Of a stretch of DNA of 7,076 bases, positions 192 through 6,750 are shown in pieces (positions within the stretch are counted from its first letter, which is position 1; each line of letters begins with the position of its first letter). Under the pieces are notes generated by a model. That model saw only the letters and a program-made list of their open reading frames with translations. It was not told where the DNA came from and made no database searches. The position numbers were made by a program, and so were the translations under genes. The stretch is taken from positions 1 to 7,076 of the forward strand of contig CATKXN010000142.1 in assembly GCA_949840605.1 (NCBI GenBank), read 5' to 3'. The DNA is from an uncultured Alistipes sp. (GTDB lineage: Bacteria; Bacteroidota; Bacteroidia; Bacteroidales; Rikenellaceae).

Positions 192-227
192 AAAAAACAA
201 TGCGGCCCGAAAGCCGCATTGTTTTTT
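192..227. terminator. Bidirectional rho-independent terminator
   Basis: A perfect 15-bp inverted repeat (192-206 paired with 213-227) has a 6-base loop at 207-212. The GC core GCGGC/GCCGC is flanked by A6 on the left and T6 on the right, so the structure has a U-tract in both directions. It lies between two convergent genes, the plus-strand gene ending at 174 and the minus-strand dehydrogenase ending at 236, and probably stops transcription of both. Confidence 0.9.
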
Positions 228-235
228 GCGTATGA

Positions 236-1048
236 CTACGCCTGGAATTTCATCGTAAACTTCCGGAGCGGTCTCAGCACCCACATCGGCAGCGCTTTGC
301 AGAGGGGAATCCACGCGCGGTTCCACCAGTCGGGAACGATGCACCGACGGCCCCGCCACAAGGCCCGCAGTCCGCGCCGGGCGCACGAGTCGGCGGAGAT
401 GAGCACTCCGAGACGGCGGCCGATGCGCTGCCAGCGGGGCGTCAGCCCGTAGAGGTCCGTGGCGACGCCTGCCGGACATACCGCCGTGACGCGGATGCCG
501 TGCTCCTCGACCTCTTTCGAAAAGGCCACCGAAAACGACCGCAGATAAGCCTTCGACGCGCTGTACAGCGACAGCCCCGGGAAGGGCATCCACAGCGAGT
601 AGGAGGACATGTTGAGGATATATCCCCGGCAGCCTCTGCGCACCATGTCGGCGGCCGCCAGACGGCACAGCTGGGTGTTCGTCAGGGCGTGCAGGAGGAT
701 GATCCGTTCGATGCGTTCGGGCGGCGTCCGCAAGATGTCGCGGAACGAGAAAATCCCCGCGTTGTTTATCAGTACGTCGACTGCCACGCCCTCCCGCCGC
801 ACGGCTTCCCAAAGCTCCTCGGCGGCCTCCGTGCGGGCCAGGTCGATCTCGACGATGCGCACGTCGCAGCGGTTCGCGGCGGCATGTATTTCCGCGGCAA
901 CGGCCTCCAGCGGTTCGCGGCGGTTGCCCGCCAGCACGAGGTCGTAGCCCAGCGCCGCCAGCCGCAGGGCGTAGCAGCGTCCGATGCCCGATCCGGCGCC
1001 CGTCACCAGCGCCCGGGCGCTTCCCGGTGTGATCGCTCCGCGTTTCAT
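236..1048 (-). CDS. Short-chain dehydrogenase/reductase (SDR), candidate hydroxysteroid dehydrogenase
   Basis: This is a 270-residue classical SDR, the usual size for the family. The cofactor-binding motif TGAGSGIG is at residues 16-23, NNAG at 95-98, the catalytic Ser at 148/149 (NMSSYS) and the YSASK motif gives Tyr162 and Lys166. The residues after beta-strand 2 (AGNRRE, 41-46) are basic rather than acidic, which in SDRs usually favours NADP(H). The C-terminal 30 residues are rich in Trp, Pro and basic residues and may form an amphipathic or membrane-touching tail. The ATG shares a base with the stop of the OYE gene upstream (TGATG), so I chose this start even though the frame stays open further. 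As the last gene of the 5-alpha-reductase/OYE operon, it could reduce or oxidise the 3-position (3-alpha or 3-beta HSDH) of a steroid or bile acid. Membership of the SDR family is certain; the substrate is inferred from context only. Confidence 0.9.
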   Translation of the reverse strand: MKRGAITPGSARALVTGAGSGIGRCYALRLAALGYDLVLAGNRREPLEAVAAEIHAAANRCDVRIVEIDLARTEAAEELWEAVRREGVAVDVLINNAGIFSFRDILRTPPERIERIILLHALTNTQLCRLAAADMVRRGCRGYILNMSSYSLWMPFPGLSLYSASKAYLRSFSVAFSKEVEEHGIRVTAVCPAGVATDLYGLTPRWQRIGRRLGVLISADSCARRGLRALWRGRRCIVPDWWNRAWIPLCKALPMWVLRPLRKFTMKFQA

Positions 1049-1050
1049 CA
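1046..1050 (-). other. TGATG stop/start overlap joining the OYE and SDR genes
   Basis: On the minus strand the TGA stop of the OYE frame (1050-1048) and the ATG of the SDR (1048-1046) share one base. This is a common arrangement for translational coupling through termination-reinitiation, and it decides the SDR start. If the frameshift in the OYE gene is real, ribosomes starting at its first codon stop about 900 bases upstream, so coupled translation of the SDR would be weakened. Confidence 0.8.
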
Positions 1051-2255
1051 GGGCAGGCGTTTCAGTTCTTCGACGATTTTCCGCGGCAGGTCGGGGCAGT
1101 CCTTGCAGCACTTCATGTCCACGGAGTACATCCGCGCGATGCAGTAGTTGCGGTGGTCGCAGGCGCTGCGCGTCGAGGCGTCGCCCGCGCGGAGCTTGTC
1201 GACGAACGACGGGTCGTTGACCAGCGCCCGGGCCATCTGCACCAGCTCGAACCCGGCGTCCAGCGCCCGGTCGATGCCCTCGCGGCTGACGAGTCCCCCG
1301 ACGTAGATCAGCGGACCTTTCAGCGCCGCGCGGAACTTCTTGGCGTCCTCGAGGAAATAACACTCCTCGAAGGGGAACTGCCGGATCATGAAGGGTCCGC
1401 ACCAGCGGATGAAGTAGCGCAGCCACAGCGGCGAGTAGTAGCTCATGGTATAGATCGGGATCAGCCCCCGCATGACGGCCATCGGGGCCTTCGACACGAA
1501 TCCGCCCGAGAGGACGATGCCGTCCACGCCGAAGGATTCGATGACCCGCGCTATCTCGATGCTTTCGGGGATTTCGACGCCCCCTTTGAATCCGTCGTAC
1601 ATGTTGTGCTTCACGGTGACGGCCATGCCGCAGGCGCGGGCCGCCTCGACGGCCTCCCCGAGACACATCCGCATGAACCGCATGCGGTTCTCCAGCGATC
1701 CGCCGTATTCGTCGCGGCGGCGGTTGGTGTAGGGCGAGAGGAACTGCGAGATGAGGTAACCGTGCCCGGCATGCACCTCCACGGAGTCGAATCCCGCGTC
1801 GTGCGCCGTGCGCACCGCCGTGCCGAAATCCCGCGCGACCTGCTCGATCTCGCGTTTCTTCATGCCCCGCACGGGCGTATAGGCATAGAGGTTGAATCCC
1901 GACGAGGCGCCGATGGGCATCTGCCCGGCGGTCGTCCAGTGGGTCATATTGCCGCAGTGACCAATCTGGATGGCGGCGGCGGCCCCTTCGCGGTGGACGG
2001 CGTCGGTGATGTCGCGCAGCCCCGGGACGATCTCGGGACGCAGCCACAGCTGTTGACCGAACGGCCGCTCCGGCATCCGGCGGCGTAGGCCAGTGTGGTC
2101 ATGCCTACGCCTCCGCGGGCTACGGCGACGTGGTAATCCTTGAGTTGCTGCGTGGGGCCGAAATCCCGGCCCATCGACTCGAAGGCCGCCGAACGGATCG
2201 TGCGGTTGCGCAGCGTGACGGGGCCTAATTTGTAAGGGGTGAAGAGAGTGGACAT
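1048..2255 (-). pseudogene. Old yellow enzyme-family NADH:flavin oxidoreductase, frameshifted; candidate delta4-3-ketosteroid (5-beta) reductase
   Basis: Two minus-strand frames make one OYE protein. The start at 2255 gives MSTLFTPYKLGPVTLRNR and stays correct to about residue 61 (TLAYAAGC). The rest, from PERPFGQQLW to the stop at 1048, is one frame away. Adding one C to the CC of TGCCGG (near 2072-2073) restores one 402-residue protein, a normal size for a single-domain OYE. In that numbering, QIGHCGNM (97-104), the active-site HAGHGYL (His162, His165, Tyr167), the TIM-barrel signature RRDEYGGSLENR (about 180-191) and the FMN phosphate region YVGGLVSREG are all present. A C-terminal Cys group (366, 372, 383, 384, 387) resembles but does not match the 4Fe-4S motif of dienoyl-CoA reductase relatives. 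There is no FAD/NAD domain as in BaiCD/BaiH. Its place between a 5-alpha-reductase and an SDR suggests a 3-oxo-delta4 steroid or bile acid 5-beta-reductase, but OYE substrates vary widely. The break may be a real mutation or a base error. Restart at the ATG at 2076 would lose the first barrel strand and probably FMN contacts. Confidence 0.85.
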
Positions 2256-2283
2256 TTTATGAATTGAAAGTTGGAAGCGCAGA

Positions 2284-2340
2284 ACCGGCTGGTGAGCAGG
2301 CGGGGTATCCGTCGCCCCTAAAGCCGGCTCACCAGCCGGT
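2284..2340. repeat. 14-bp perfect inverted repeat between the 5-alpha-reductase and OYE genes
   Basis: ACCGGCTGGTGAGC at 2284-2297 is exactly complementary to 2327-2340, with 29 bases between, including a GGGG/CCCC pairing (2302-2305 with 2315-2318). The right arm can also fold alone: CCGGCT-CACC-AGCCGG at 2324-2339 gives a 6-bp stem with a 4-base loop. The two folds exclude each other. The repeat abuts the stop codon of the 5-alpha-reductase. No T-run follows in the direction of transcription, so it is not a standard terminator. It may act as an mRNA stability element, an attenuator, or a REP-like intergenic repeat. Confidence 0.85.
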
Positions 2341-3101
2341 CAGTAGATGAAAGGTATGATGCGTTTGCGGTGCAGTTTCGAGAATTCTTCGCCGAACTCC
2401 TGCTCGTAACGGCGGCGGAGCGACGCGGCGCGGGGGGCGAGGTTGGCGAACGTCCACCATGCGAACACCGCTCCGGCCCACGACCACGAGGCGATGGCGA
2501 AGCCCGTCCATTCGGTCAGCTCGCCGAAATAGTTGGCCGACGAAACGTAGCGGAACATCCCGCCGCGGGGAATGTAGTGGCGCGTGTCGCCGGGTTTCCG
2601 CAGGTTGCGGATGATGTGGTCGGAATGGAGGTTGACGGCCATGCCGGCCAGGAACAGCGCCCCGCCGATGTAGATGTAGGGCTGTGAGAACCAGTCGGCG
2701 TAATAGTCCGCGGGCGAGACGTAGAAGATCCATCCGCCCTGCATCAGGGCGTTGAGCGTGTTGAAGACCATGCCCATCAGAACGATGCCGAGGGGCATTT
2801 TGCCTTTGCCGCGGATCAGCAGCGGGAAGATGAAGGCCCGCTGGAGGTAGTGCGCCTGGAAAAGGCAGAACAGCGTCAGCGGTCCGGCCTGCCACATCCG
2901 CTCGGACGAGGCCCACAGCACGCACATCAGGATAAAGACCGGGGATTCCATCACCACCCAGCCGATTTTGTTCGGCACGGGAGGTCCGTAGCGTCGGTCG
3001 AAGAGGTAGCCGTAGCCGGCTTCGAAAAAATGGAGTGCGGCGAAGACCACGGCGGCCAGCAGGGCCATGACGGTCAGGAAGATCGTGAAGGTTTCTGTCA
3101 T
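2340..3101 (-). CDS. Steroid 5-alpha-reductase family (SRD5A-like) membrane oxidoreductase
   Basis: This 253-residue polytopic membrane protein matches the length of human SRD5A1/2 (259/254). Its C-terminal domain carries the family signature almost unbroken: NLHSD (157-161), LRKPG (167-171), IPRGGMFRYVSSANYFGE (177-194), EWTGFAIASWS (197-207) and the closing RKRIIPFIY. From memory of human SRD5A2, Glu57, Tyr91, Asp164, Asn193 and Glu197 correspond here to Glu52 (MESP), Tyr85 (AHYLQR), Asp161, Asn190 and Glu194, so the NADPH- and ketone-binding positions look intact. The expected reaction is NADPH-dependent reduction of the delta4 bond of a 3-oxo-delta4 steroid or bile acid to the 5-alpha (allo) product in the inner membrane. 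I chose the start at 3101 because the protein then begins with a hydrophobic helix, aligns to family length and lies 43 bases below a consensus promoter; the frame upstream to 3281 would read through that promoter. It is the first gene of an operon with an OYE and an SDR. An enoyl-lipid reductase role is a weaker alternative. Confidence 0.9.
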   Translation of the reverse strand: MTETFTIFLTVMALLAAVVFAALHFFEAGYGYLFDRRYGPPVPNKIGWVVMESPVFILMCVLWASSERMWQAGPLTLFCLFQAHYLQRAFIFPLLIRGKGKMPLGIVLMGMVFNTLNALMQGGWIFYVSPADYYADWFSQPYIYIGGALFLAGMAVNLHSDHIIRNLRKPGDTRHYIPRGGMFRYVSSANYFGELTEWTGFAIASWSWAGAVFAWWTFANLAPRAASLRRRYEQEFGEEFSKLHRKRIIPFIY

Positions 3102-3144: not shown

Positions 3145-3175
3145 CAAAGGTACGCATTTTTCCGCTTCCGGCAAA
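3145..3175 (-). promoter_or_regulatory. Consensus Bacteroidetes sigma-ABfr promoter for the 5-alpha-reductase operon
   Basis: On the minus strand, TTTG (3175-3172) is followed after exactly 19 bases by TACCTTTG (3152-3145), an exact match to the Bacteroidetes pattern TTTG-N19-TAnnTTTG. The -7 box ends 43 bases before the ATG at 3101, giving a leader of roughly 35 bases. The promoter lies in the gap after the glutamate decarboxylase gene, so the reductase/OYE/SDR operon can be transcribed independently of it. Confidence 0.85.
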
Positions 3176-3214: not shown

Positions 3215-3241
3215 TTCGCCGTTTGGTAGGAACACAAGGCA

Positions 3242-3271
3242 GCCCCCGCCTCATTTTTCGGAAGCGGGGGC
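3242..3271. other. GC-rich stem-loop downstream of glutamate decarboxylase
   Basis: GCCCCCGC (3242-3249) pairs with GCGGGGGC (3264-3271) around a 14-base loop containing a T5 run. No U-tract follows on either strand, so it is at best a weak or factor-dependent terminator for the decarboxylase transcript, which enters from the right. Confidence 0.5.
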
Positions 3272-3283
3272 CGTCAGGCACAG

Positions 3284-3320: not shown

Positions 3321-4736
3321 TTAATGCGTGTAGACCTTGCCCTTCTGGTGCTCCTGGTTCTCGTACTTGATGCGCGAGGGGGTGGGGTACTGGAGTTTCT
3401 CGAACTCGGCGACGGCGTTGCGGATGTCGCCCAGCAGCATGTCGGCCATGTCGCGCGACATGCCCTGGCGCACGACGATGCGCATGACGATCATATCGTC
3501 GATGTTCTTGGGCATGGTGTAGGCCGGAACCATCCAGCCGCTCTGCTGCAGCGAAGCCTGCAGGTCGAAGAGCGTCCATTTGGCCTTCTTGTCGTACTCG
3601 GGGTCCATCATCCAGATGAACAGCGGGTTGACGACCTCACGGGCGTAGTTCCTGAAGCACGGCATCTTGCCGATCTGCTCGTGGCAGTATTGGGCGATGT
3701 CCATCGAGTTCTGCTGAACCTCCCGGTAACCCTCGAATCCCAGGCGGATGAAGTTGTAGTACTGGCCGAGGATCTGCGCCGCCGGGCGCGAGAAGTTGAG
3801 GCCCACCTGCGTGATGTTGGCGCCGAGGTAGTTGACCGAGAACGACATCTCGTCGGGCAGATACTTCTTGTCCTTCCATACGACCCAGCCCAGACCCGGG
3901 TATACCAGTCCGTACTTGTGGCCCGACGTGGAGATCGACAGCACCCATTTGAGGCGGAAGTCCCACTTCTTCTCGGGTTTGAGGAACGGCAGGATGAAAC
4001 CGCCCGACGCCGCGTCGACGTGGATCGGAATTTCATAGCCGGTCTTCTGGTTGTAGGCGTCGAGGGCCTTGTCCAATCCTTCGATGTCGTCGTCCAGACC
4101 CGTCCACGTCACACCGGCGATGGGCACGATGCAGATGGTGTTTTCGTCGCAGACTTTCAGGGCCTCGTCGATGTCGAGCGTGGGCTTGTCGAGGGTCAGG
4201 GGCACGGTGCGCATCTCGATCTGCCACAGCTGGCAGAACTTCTCCCACACGACCTGGAATCCGGTGCTCATCACCAGATTGGGTTTGTCGAAGGGTTTGC
4301 CGGCGGCCTTGCGGCGGTTGCGCCAGCGGAGCCATGCGGCCACGCCGCCCAGCATGCAGGCTTCGGACGATCCGATGCCCAGCGCTCCGGTTTTCCATTC
4401 GGCCTTTTCGGGCGTGTTCCACATATTGGCGACGATGTTGAGGCAGCGTCCGCACATCACCGCTACGCGCGGGTATTCCGTCTCGTCGATGTAGTTGATG
4501 TTGATGGCCTCGTTCATCAGACGGGTGGCGTAGTCGTCCATGTAGGTCGTCACGAAAGTCGCCAGGTTCAGCCGCGGCTGGGTCTGGGGATAGGTCTCGT
4601 CCTTGACCAGCTGATAGGCGATCTCAGGGGCCGTCTTCTCCTTGGGAATGAACTCCGTCGGAGCCGGCGAACGCATCTCTTTCGATCCGAAAATGTCTGT
4701 CAGAGTGTCCTCGGTGGTGTGTTTCTGCTGATTCAT
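3321..4736 (-). CDS. gadB: Glutamate decarboxylase (PLP-dependent, GadA/GadB type)
   Basis: This enzyme converts glutamate to GABA and CO2 in the cytoplasm, consuming a proton, and usually serves acid resistance. The 471 residues compare with 466 in E. coli GadB. Clear family landmarks are NLATF (57-61), GSSEACMLGG (122-131), DENT..VVP-like DENTICIVP (197-205), HVDAASGGF (239-247) with the PLP-ring Asp241, and STSGHKYG (269-276) with the PLP Lys274. NFSRPA (314-319) and the late VMRIVVRQG are also kept. The protein ends in KVYTH; its terminal His sits where the E. coli tail (FKHT) has the His that closes the active site at neutral pH. I chose the ATG at 4736 (MNQQKHTTED) rather than 4781, because it fits family length and follows an A-rich leader typical of Bacteroidetes; the longer form would extend into the region upstream. 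No glutamate/GABA antiporter (gadC) lies in the window. No consensus promoter was found in the 95-base gap upstream on this strand. Confidence 0.96.
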   Translation of the reverse strand: MNQQKHTTEDTLTDIFGSKEMRSPAPTEFIPKEKTAPEIAYQLVKDETYPQTQPRLNLATFVTTYMDDYATRLMNEAININYIDETEYPRVAVMCGRCLNIVANMWNTPEKAEWKTGALGIGSSEACMLGGVAAWLRWRNRRKAAGKPFDKPNLVMSTGFQVVWEKFCQLWQIEMRTVPLTLDKPTLDIDEALKVCDENTICIVPIAGVTWTGLDDDIEGLDKALDAYNQKTGYEIPIHVDAASGGFILPFLKPEKKWDFRLKWVLSISTSGHKYGLVYPGLGWVVWKDKKYLPDEMSFSVNYLGANITQVGLNFSRPAAQILGQYYNFIRLGFEGYREVQQNSMDIAQYCHEQIGKMPCFRNYAREVVNPLFIWMMDPEYDKKAKWTLFDLQASLQQSGWMVPAYTMPKNIDDMIVMRIVVRQGMSRDMADMLLGDIRNAVAEFEKLQYPTPSRIKYENQEHQKGKVYTH

Positions 4737-4831: not shown

Positions 4832-5545
4832 ATGAAAAAACTCGTAGTCTTTACCGGCGCCGGCGTCAGCGCCGACAGCGGTCTTGCGACGTTCCGGGAT
4901 TCGGACGGGACGTGGGGGAATTACAAGATCGAGGAGGTCTGCATCCCCGAGGCCCTGGACTTCAACCGCCGGGGCGTGATCCGCTTCTACAACGACCGCC
5001 GCCGCGAAATGCTCGCCGCCGAACCCAATCCCGCACATCGGGCCGTTGCCGCCCTGGAACGCGATTTCGACGTGCAGGTCATCACCCAGAATGTCGACAA
5101 CCTGCACGAACGCGCCGGCTCGACGCATATTCTCCACTTACACGGAGAACTCACCAAGCTGCGCTCGTCGGACGATCCGTCGCTCATCGTGCCGTTCGAC
5201 GGTGTCGAGCAGGGTTTCGACGATGTGGCGCCCGACGGTTCGCTGCTGCGGCCGCATATCGTTTTCTTCGGCGAACCGGTTCCCGAGTTCGAGCGAGCTG
5301 CGGCGCTTGCCGCCGAGGCCGATATCTTCGTGGTGATCGGCACGTCGCTGGCGGTCTATCCCGCGGCGTCGCTGGTGCGGTGCGTGCGTTCCGAAATCCC
5401 GGTCTATGTGGTCGATCCGGGGCGTCCGGCGATCCGGGGCATCCGCAATCCGCTGGAGGTGATCCGCAAACGCGCCGGCGAAGGCGTTCCGGAATTGGCC
5501 GGACGCCTGCGCGAAATGTACGCGGAACATCCTGTGCACGCGTAA
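4832..5545 (+). CDS. NAD-dependent protein deacylase, class III sirtuin (CobB/SIRT5-like), lacking zinc cysteines
   Basis: This 237-residue sirtuin removes acyl groups from lysine, using NAD. NAD-binding motifs are GAGVSADSGLATFRD (9-23), TQNVDNLH (85-92) and GTS (170-172), and the catalytic His is His104 in LHGEL. Tyr53 and Arg56 in FYNDRRR occupy the Y-x-x-R positions that in E. coli CobB and human SIRT5 bind the carboxylate of succinyl, malonyl or glutaryl lysine, so desuccinylase-type activity is likely. Between His104 and RPHIVFFGE (140-148) there is no cysteine, so the usual four-Cys zinc module is missing; related Bacteroidetes sirtuins, as I recall them, share this feature. The start at 4832 gives the expected MKKLVVFTGAG beginning; an ATG five bases earlier is out of frame. 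It converges on the MeaB gene with a shared terminator. A nucleoside-handling role cannot be excluded but is less likely. Confidence 0.93.
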   Translation: MKKLVVFTGAGVSADSGLATFRDSDGTWGNYKIEEVCIPEALDFNRRGVIRFYNDRRREMLAAEPNPAHRAVAALERDFDVQVITQNVDNLHERAGSTHILHLHGELTKLRSSDDPSLIVPFDGVEQGFDDVAPDGSLLRPHIVFFGEPVPEFERAAALAAEADIFVVIGTSLAVYPAASLVRCVRSEIPVYVVDPGRPAIRGIRNPLEVIRKRAGEGVPELAGRLREMYAEHPVHA

Positions 5546-5622: not shown

Positions 5623-6750
5623 TTATTCCGACTTCCCGGCCGTATCCTTGAAATAGATTTCCAACAGCTCCTTGGCCGCGATGAACGACGAAATCCGGTC
5701 CTCCAGTACGCGCTTCTCGTACTCCCCGATACGCCCTTCGACGGCCGGATCGCGGTAGAAACTCTCCCGCAGGGCCTCGTTGATCGTTTCGTACATCCAG
5801 TATTTGTTCTGCCGGTTGCGGTTGTGGCGGAAATAGCCGTTTTTCTCGATGTGCTCGAGGTATTCCTCGACGCCTTTCCAGACCTCCTCCAGACCCGTTC
5901 GGGTCACCGCCGACGAGGTGTAGACCTTGGGCCGCCAGCCCGATTCGGGCACCGGGAACAGCCTCAGGGCGCCCTGGAACTGCGTCTGCGCCAGTTCGGC
6001 CTTGTGGACGTTCTCGCCGTCGGCCTTGGTGATGACCATCAGGTCGGCCATCTCCATAATGCCGCGCTTGATGCCCTGCAATTCGTCTCCCGCGCCCGAG
6101 ATCTGCAGCAGCATGAAGAGATCGACCATCGAATGTACGGCGGTCTCCGACTGCCCGACGCCCACCGTCTCGATGAAGATGACGTCGAACCCGGCGGCCT
6201 CGCACAGTACGATCGTCTCGCGCGTCTTGCGGGCCACGCCGCCAAGCGATCCCGCCGACGGGGAGGGGCGCACGAAGACCGAAGGGTTGTTGCAGATGCT
6301 CTCCATGCGGGTTTTGTCGCCGAGAATCGAGCCCCCGCTGCGTTCCGACGAGGGGTCGATGGCCAGCACCGCGAGCTTGTGGCGCAGCGAGACGACCATG
6401 TTGCCGATGGCCTCGATAAAGGTGGATTTTCCGGCTCCCGGGACGCCCGTGATGCCGATGCGGACCGAGCGTCCGGCGTGGGGCAGGCACGCCTCGATGA
6501 TCTCCTGCGCCTGCGCATAGTGCGCCGGATTGGACGATTCGACCAGCGTGATGGCCTGCGAGAGGGTGGTGATGTTGCCCGCGAGGATGCCCTCGACATA
6601 CTCTCCGGTCGAAAGCGCGCGCTTCTTGCGACGCTTGAAATAAGGGCTTACTATGGGTTGATCCTCAACGCCCTCCGTGACGTTCAGGGCCGTGTCGTGA
6701 TGACAGTCGGCGTACTCTTTTTCGTAGTGGTCTATCTTGGTGAATGACAT
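5623..6750 (-). CDS. meaB: MeaB/ArgK-family GTPase, chaperone of methylmalonyl-CoA mutase
   Basis: This 375-residue G3E-family GTPase corresponds to MeaB/MMAA, which loads, guards and repairs the adenosylcobalamin cofactor of methylmalonyl-CoA mutase in the cytoplasm (the succinyl-CoA/methylmalonyl-CoA step of propionate metabolism). Visible motifs are the P-loop GVPGAGKS (102-109), DPSSERSGGSILGDKTRM (132-149), Walker B with the base-region ETVGVGQSE (194-202), and the guanine-specificity TKAD (241-244). SGAGDELQGIKRGIMEMAD (218-236) is also characteristic. The protein is about 40 residues longer than E. coli ArgK, due to an N-terminal extension rich in charged residues. The gene starts 6 bases after the stop of the upstream thioredoxin-fold gene, so both are probably co-transcribed from outside the window. 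The mutase genes are not in view. Older annotation as a lysine/arginine transport kinase (ArgK) is not supported by the motifs. Confidence 0.95.
   Translation of the reverse strand: MSFTKIDHYEKEYADCHHDTALNVTEGVEDQPIVSPYFKRRKKRALSTGEYVEGILAGNITTLSQAITLVESSNPAHYAQAQEIIEACLPHAGRSVRIGITGVPGAGKSTFIEAIGNMVVSLRHKLAVLAIDPSSERSGGSILGDKTRMESICNNPSVFVRPSPSAGSLGGVARKTRETIVLCEAAGFDVIFIETVGVGQSETAVHSMVDLFMLLQISGAGDELQGIKRGIMEMADLMVITKADGENVHKAELAQTQFQGALRLFPVPESGWRPKVYTSSAVTRTGLEEVWKGVEEYLEHIEKNGYFRHNRNRQNKYWMYETINEALRESFYRDPAVEGRIGEYEKRVLEDRISSFIAAKELLEIYFKDTAGKSE

Follow-up and report, generated by a model that had tools for sequence, protein, structure and literature searches.

The window analysed here is the whole stretch of 7,076 bases, Alistipes-like DNA, and it carries on its minus strand, in this order, a 3-oxo-delta4-steroid 5-alpha-reductase of the SRD5A type (5AR), an old yellow enzyme (OYE) family flavin oxidoreductase and a short-chain dehydrogenase/reductase (SDR). 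The lead protein is a close relative of the human enzyme that produces dihydrotestosterone. The set is likely the form that the known Bacteroidales 5-alpha-reductase operon takes in Alistipes (Rikenellaceae), running from one promoter to one terminator. Gene order, family membership, active-site residues and conservation across relatives are observed in the window and its relatives; the enzyme role is a predicted one, and the choice between steroid hormone and bile acid as the 5AR substrate cannot be read from sequence. A first-pass annotation of this DNA had described three tandem minus-strand genes. Their order (5AR, OYE, SDR) and strand stand, and the TGATG overlap between the OYE stop and the SDR start is found at 1050-1046. 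The OYE gene, which had been taken as intact, has an interrupted reading frame. The features of the operon are as follows.

3145-3175, minus strand: Bacteroidetes-type promoter motif, TTTG-N19-TACCTTTG (pattern TTTG-N19-TAnnTTTG), 43 nt upstream of the 5AR ATG
2340-3101, minus strand: 5AR, predicted SRD5A-type 3-oxo-delta4-steroid 5-alpha-reductase, membrane enzyme of 253 aa (PF02544, PDB matches, model)
2284-2340: hairpin that begins at the 5AR stop codon and runs on into the space before OYE, 18-nt arms 94% complementary (minimum free energy, MFE, -41.1; z -5.55)
1048-2255, minus strand: OYE-family flavin oxidoreductase gene whose frame breaks near 2050-2080, leaving an N part that starts at 2255 and a C part that ends at 1048
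236-1048, minus strand: SDR of type W, 270 aa (PF00106, 140 bits; NNAG, Ser and YxxxK motif residues retained)
192-227, minus strand: terminator-like hairpin downstream of the SDR, with a perfect 15-bp stem and a T run (MFE -23.2, z -6.06)

The 5-alpha-reductase and conservation of the operon

The lead protein scored 147 bits against Steroid_dh (PF02544, Pfam cut-off 22.6) and weakly against DUF1295 (PF06966, 23.4 bits, cut-off 20.4). Its top PDB sequence matches were PbSRD5A (7c83, E 2e-56) and human SRD5A2 (7bw1, E 2e-40), and the enoyl-CoA reductase art-1 was a far weaker match (E 1.8e-8). A grouping with fatty enoyl reductases had been named as the case that would speak against a steroid enzyme; these Pfam and PDB scores favour SRD5A, and the fatty enoyl reductase assignment was ruled out. 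An AlphaFold model built from a 39-sequence alignment (pLDDT 92.1) takes the SRD5A fold, with TM scores of 0.90 to 7c83 and 0.86 to 7bw1. A structure search with this model gave no other match under E 0.001. The SRD5A signature reported at first pass was thus confirmed (PF02544 and the matches to PbSRD5A and SRD5A2), and by family and predicted fold the lead protein is assigned as a true SRD5A-type 5-alpha-reductase.

All four catalytic residues that had been named (Glu57, Tyr91, Asp164 and Asn193 in human SRD5A2 numbering) are retained. The Glu57/Tyr91 pair corresponds to E52 and Y85 in the window; it is invariant in the 5AR alignment and conserved in 116 of 116 operon-type relatives, which comprise 80 Rikenellaceae-type copies and 36 copies from a sample of the order (27 stand-alone copies were compared separately). 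Matches under 60 bits (L148-L150) and loci lacking 5AR (L151-L154) were left out of these residue counts. Among the NADPH contacts, PbSRD5A N159, D163, R170, N192, Y193, E196, T219, N222 and R226 are conserved in the window and each is found in at least 112 of the 116 operon-type relatives; Y32 is also kept, so that the set of NADPH contacts is largely preserved. The window 5AR thus resembles PbSRD5A and human SRD5A2 in fold, in the Glu/Tyr pair and in most NADPH residues. It differs from them at the Gln of the QEY motif (Met) and at human His231 (Leu), and PbSRD5A groups with the stand-alone copies. One metagenome relative of 253 aa (P0002, 90% identical to the window 5AR and representing 1212 sequences) has Asp at the catalytic Glu position.

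The Rikenellaceae-type set consists of 80 of the 405 loci found, mostly labelled Alistipes or Rikenellaceae, with L061 labelled Prevotellaceae, L011 Millionella and L079 Bacteroidales. Among these 80, the closest to the window are Alistipes sp. Zagget8 (L001; DNA identity 89-91% across aligned blocks) and A. montrealensis (L005). The synteny check proposed at first pass bore out the arrangement: the order 5AR-OYE-SDR is conserved in 75 of the 80 loci, and the remaining five end after OYE, no more than 300 nt from a contig end. 5AR adjoins OYE in the window (gap of 84 nt) and in 80/80 loci; the gap measures 1-222 nt in all of these but L019, where it is 1515 nt. The conserved gene order exceeds chance. 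The L019 locus (A. senegalensis) contains about 1.5 kb between 5AR and OYE, at about 6763-8277. Low dN/dS values against L001 (5AR 0.129, OYE C part 0.071, SDR 0.144) suggest that the genes are constrained.

A PF02544 match at E 0.001, in many cases a weak one, is present in 116 of the 295 genomes of the order sample; neighbourhoods were taken from 60 places and 30 short loci. A 5AR tree of 92 proteins, using 28 of the 80 Rikenellaceae-type loci and excluding the partial L111, separates a stand-alone type from an operon type by a branch with support 100/99 (bootstrap unsettled). The operon type includes the window and the 28 Rikenellaceae-type rows, and the stand-alone type includes PbSRD5A on a long branch. 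OYE is found at the same locus as 29 of the 36 operon-type copies of the order sample (within about 150 nt in 25), and near none of the 17 stand-alone copies with longer flanks (L155-L171, 6 to 10.5 kb). Seven operon-type 5AR copies (L138, L139, L142, L144-L147) have no OYE or SDR nearby; four of them are paired within genomes G005 (L144, L147) and G124 (L142, L146).

The operon kind is already known. The Parabacteroides/Odoribacter cluster is tied to iso- and allo-lithocholic acids; in P. merdae, 5AR is clustered with a predicted 3-beta-hydroxysteroid dehydrogenase (3-beta-HSDH) and an NADH:flavin oxidoreductase, and 5AR disruption prevents formation of allolithocholic acid (alloLCA) derivatives (PMC10382948). 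The three enzymes or their cluster have been linked to isoallolithocholic acid (isoalloLCA) in several reports (PMC10382948, PMC11271093, PMC12697870). 5AR was noted in 2018 in a set of Bacteroidetes isolates that includes Alistipes (PMC6069880), a published survey of Bacteroidetes isolates annotated a 5AR-type gene in all except a few, its passages on the gene giving no analysis of operon, clade or SDR, and "Alistipes sp" is named for 5-alpha-reductase in a review (PMC12789469). The window shares with the Bacteroidales isoalloLCA cluster (P. merdae and others, Sato et al. 2021) the three enzyme kinds side by side, and its 5AR falls in the operon-type group together with that of locus L174 (60% identical to the window; kin in Tannerellaceae/Parabacteroides). 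It differs from that cluster in its out-of-frame OYE and probably also in its type W SDR, as opposed to type T in 11 loci of the L174 family. The first-pass description of the window as a variant of the known Bacteroidales 5AR/OYE/SDR set therefore stands for the kind of operon (the 100/99 tree group, OYE in 29 of 36 loci) and not for OYE function or SDR identity.

The interrupted OYE gene and the two SDR types

No single frame reads through OYE: its N-terminal and C-terminal parts are encoded in different frames, and Pfam matches each as a fragment of the same family. Compared with six relatives, the window lacks a net four bases in the break region, and the damage is restricted to about ten codons. 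Three replacements lie near the break: Gly (Val/Ile in 76 relatives), Arg (Leu/Ile/Val) and Val (Phe in 76/76). In the N part's own frame, four near-invariant positions ahead of the break (97% or more conserved) retain their residues, R, S, G and S. Outside the break one of 194 such positions deviates (I227V); four intact relatives deviate at 0-1 positions each. The C part is 97% identical over 337 aa to P0121 (404 aa, Alistipes senegalensis). Four of the 80 loci are cut by a contig end; in each of the other 76 the gene runs uninterrupted for 401-407 aa, counted from where the match starts. Since all 76 relatives are intact and the damage is confined to some ten codons, the break would be a loss of very recent date or else an error in the sequence at this point. 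The proposal that this OYE is a working 5-beta-reductase is not supported for the window copy because its frame is broken. Among ten further operons of the L174 family, three have no OYE and run from 5AR directly into the SDR of type T (L178, L179 and L180), which suggests that OYE loss is tolerated elsewhere.

The intact OYE of L001 scored best against the NCBIfam models for mycofactocin OYE_2 (190.8 bits, cut-off 793), BaiCD (163.8, cut-off 825) and NamA (149.2, cut-off 431), in each case below the cut-off. Its nearest solved relatives are NADPH dehydrogenases and YqjM, with which its H-x-x-H-x-Y stretch aligns; both His and the Tyr are conserved in 76 relatives and 29 others. Like BaiCD and the clostridial 5-beta-reductase ci2350, this protein is an OYE-family flavin oxidoreductase and the active-site Tyr is kept in the Alistipes-type relatives. 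It differs from BaiCD in size (model of 642 positions versus about 403 aa here) and from the clostridial clades at two active-site residues: these clades have N166/S171 (hormone) or Y,S166/E171 (bile acid) (PMC12238238), whereas the OYE relatives have G166 and Q171 in 76/76 (in the others, G in 26/29 and Q in 29/29), the two positions being matched by their place beside the shared Tyr and not by alignment of ci2350 itself. BaiCD or a clostridial 5-beta-reductase was ruled out as its identity by the score (163.8 versus 825 bits) and the two active-site residues. The "5-beta-reductase" label for this OYE is best taken to rest on gene context and a hypothesis in the literature, and not on membership of a tested clade.

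The window SDR (type W) and the L174 SDR (type T) are 24% identical across 201 aa and their best NCBIfam models differ. By sequence, this is the level of separate SDR families, and W and T are related no more closely than as members of the SDR superfamily. The L174 family is probably Tannerellaceae, since most named relatives of the L174 5AR come from "Tannerellaceae bacterium" or "Parabacteroides sp. PF5-5" (75-78% identity), and one from Candidatus Caccoplasma (68%). In sampling that family, 12 of 59 genomes matched and ten were taken (G109 was already represented as L174 and G402 was weak). All ten further loci carry T and none carries W, so that T is present in all 11 with L174 counted. 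In the Rikenellaceae-type set, W follows OYE in 75 of 80 loci. T was not seen in the 67 of these 75 that have at least 900 nt beyond W. The other eight have less than 900 nt; one of them, L080, has T in tandem after W and seven are too short to judge. A search of 41 genus genomes for type T found none, the SDR matches being weak (best 41.6 bits, 31% identity); operon T copies besides the query reach 142-347 bits by tblastn, on a scale that differs from the 41.6-bit figure, and 34-62% identity. The 36 operon-type loci of the order sample are mixed: W and T in tandem, in that order, in 11, T but no W in seven, W but no T in seven (in two of which, L134 and L136, W lies more than 800 nt past OYE), OYE with neither SDR in four (one at a contig end) and 5AR alone in seven. 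One operon (L131) carries two tandem type W SDRs. In L027 (7998-9023) the SDR match is in two same-frame pieces about 230 nt apart, in an insertion-like arrangement.

The simplest reading of this distribution is an ancestral 5AR-OYE-W-T set from which T would have been lost in most Rikenellaceae and W in Tannerellaceae. In another review, a table that cites Sato 2021 names A. onderdonkii for the 5-alpha-reductase step from 3-oxo-delta4-LCA to 3-oxoalloLCA (PMC12692668). Under 3-beta-HSDH, the same table gives O. laneus, Odoribacteraceae, P. distasonis and P. merdae, and no Alistipes. This agrees better with T than with W as the 3-beta-HSDH, and absence from a table may be taken as weak evidence, with the P. 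merdae protein outside our alignment and A. onderdonkii outside the 80 loci. The assignment of the window SDR as the 3-beta-HSDH of the known set is not supported, given the different SDR of the L174-family operons and the absence of A. onderdonkii from the 3-beta-HSDH strains of the table. We tentatively propose, as an idea with less than even chances, that the 3-oxo reduction in the Bacteroidales 5-alpha operon falls to W and T, once-tandem SDRs of different families sorted by lineage. T would be the isoallo-forming 3-beta-HSDH and W would give another product. Alistipes, with W alone, would then release 3-oxo-allo or 3-alpha-allo steroids into the gut and not isoalloLCA, and the window strain, lacking OYE, would be locked in the 5-alpha direction. 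No account of the W/T split was found in the literature searched, most subscription papers being outside its reach.

Promoter, terminators and neighbouring genes

The first-pass annotation had placed a single consensus promoter ahead of the first gene, and one Bacteroidetes-type motif is indeed found there (3175-3145), scored by the Bacteroidetes promoter consensus. The full two-part motif has one site in the window, versus 0.025 expected from 200 order-1 Markov sequences. A sigma-70 scan gave no site before 5AR, and the sigma-70 alternative was rejected in favour of the Bacteroidetes motif. Of 78 relatives, 46 have the -7 element in the 150 nt before 5AR, compared with 192 of 3900 random stretches. 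It was found within this distance in 0/80 cases before OYE, 0/75 before the SDR and 0/13 before the glutamate decarboxylase (GAD) gene. GAD presumably has its own promoter, so the absence of the element before OYE and SDR is weak evidence.

The first-pass layout of the operon had overlooked the hairpin at 2284-2340 between the first and second genes. Its exact 14-nt stem sequence is absent from 174 loci and its exact palindrome was found in 0/101 genus genomes; a repeat family was dropped as its explanation on these results. The terminator-like hairpin at 192-227 also faces the plus-strand gene that ends at 173. The remaining features of the window are listed below.

Stop ends at 173, plus strand: gene present by its 3' end only
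3240-3273, minus strand: terminator-like hairpin between GAD and the operon (MFE -27.4, z -5.28)
About 3321-4733, minus strand: GAD
4832-5545, plus strand: SIR2-family deacylase
5623-6750, minus strand: MeaB GTPase
After the MeaB GTPase, at the right end of the window: partial gene

GAD is divergent from the SIR2-family deacylase gene beside the operon, and some of the 80 relatives also have both near 5AR, with variable strand.

Alternative readings and implications

As an Alistipes form of the known operon, the three genes would be co-transcribed. With NADPH as its reductant, the membrane 5AR is predicted to saturate the delta4 double bond in 3-oxo-delta4 steroids or bile acids that come to the cell in the gut, and so to form flat products of the 5-alpha (allo) kind. 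OYE, where intact, may act on the same A/B-ring enone from the 5-beta side. The SDR would then reduce or oxidise a steroid carbonyl, most likely at C3 and with either stereochemistry. With OYE out of frame, the window copy as read is left with just the 5-alpha step and the SDR step.

Several observations weigh against this reading. In the window 5AR, Met replaces human Gln56 of the "QEY" motif, so the strict QEY motif is absent, and Q56A/L abolishes the activity of human SRD5A2 (PMC7815742). Human His231 (PbSRD5A His230) is Leu, and further NADPH-contact changes are found at PbSRD5A Y177 (His), R34 (Tyr), M98 (Ile) and V100 (Gly). The OYE matches neither BaiCD nor the clostridial 5-beta-reductase pattern. 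The full two-part promoter motif is present in just 3 of 78 relatives versus 18 of 1560 random stretches, and with a relaxed -33 element in 9 of 78 versus 63 of 3900; because the full motif is rare in relatives, support for the promoter comes mainly from the -7 element. On the active site, the first-pass annotation was right about the residues that it named and had overlooked the Met at Gln56 and the Leu at His231. Met occupies the Gln56 column in 80/80 Rikenellaceae-type loci, 36/36 operon-type copies of the order sample and 26 of the 27 stand-alone copies (one is gapped), that is, in all 142 relatives with a residue there. As the change is group-wide, it counts against a strict QEY definition and not against SRD5A membership, and, since 5AR of P. 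merdae is required for allo products (PMC10382948), Met at this position is probably tolerated, by an argument from the group as a whole with the P. merdae sequence outside the comparison. The His230 column is Leu in 80/80 and I/L/V in 36/36 operon-type copies; of the 27 stand-alone copies, 20 have His there.

The alternatives differ mainly in how the OYE break and the SDR are read. The break could be a local sequence or assembly error in a complete isoallo-bile-acid operon, with OYE as 5-beta-reductase, the SDR as 3-beta-HSDH and a strain that makes isoallolithocholic acid. The single departure among 194 near-invariant positions outside the break, as in intact relatives (0-1), is what a local error would leave, and the otherwise strong constraint on OYE (dN/dS 0.07) and its intactness in all 76 uncut relatives agree with it. 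This reading is nevertheless doubtful, since the SDR is W and not the T of 10/10 L174-family operons, no T was found in the 41 genus genomes, A. onderdonkii is listed for 3-oxoalloLCA and not for 3-beta-HSDH in the table (PMC12692668), and OYE does not carry the residues that mark the characterised clades of 5-beta-reductase. We consider it unlikely that the operon is instead decaying, with OYE lost for good and the rest either following or turned into a one-way 5-alpha reductase: 5AR, the SDR and the remaining OYE still appear constrained and none of the 76 uncut relatives is disrupted, even though a net four-base shortfall and three replacements fall within one short stretch, the extra hairpin between genes 1 and 2 is not found in relatives and OYE loss is tolerated in 3/10 L174-family operons.

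A set acting on a non-steroid enone (a bacterial polyisoprenoid, a fatty enoyl or a plant compound) would accommodate the DUF1295 score just above its cut-off (23.4 versus 20.4), the YqjM-kind NADPH dehydrogenases as closest solved relatives of OYE and the Met at Gln56. Against this stand the 147-bit Steroid_dh score, the E values of the SRD5A structures (2e-56 and 2e-40, versus 1.8e-8 for art-1) and the genetic evidence for bile acids in P. merdae (PMC10382948), which make it very unlikely. The Alistipes form of the known Bacteroidales operon is the reading that we prefer.

This copy is ordinary in kind, and its distinct points are the broken OYE and the probably differing SDR, a modest new lead. 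Alistipes is a common gut genus, and strong 5AR matches were found in 52 of 61 sampled genomes of the A. montrealensis genus (weak matches alone in two, none in seven). If the SDR of the Alistipes operon is not a 3-beta-HSDH, annotation that equates the 5AR-OYE-SDR order with isoalloLCA would over-count producers.

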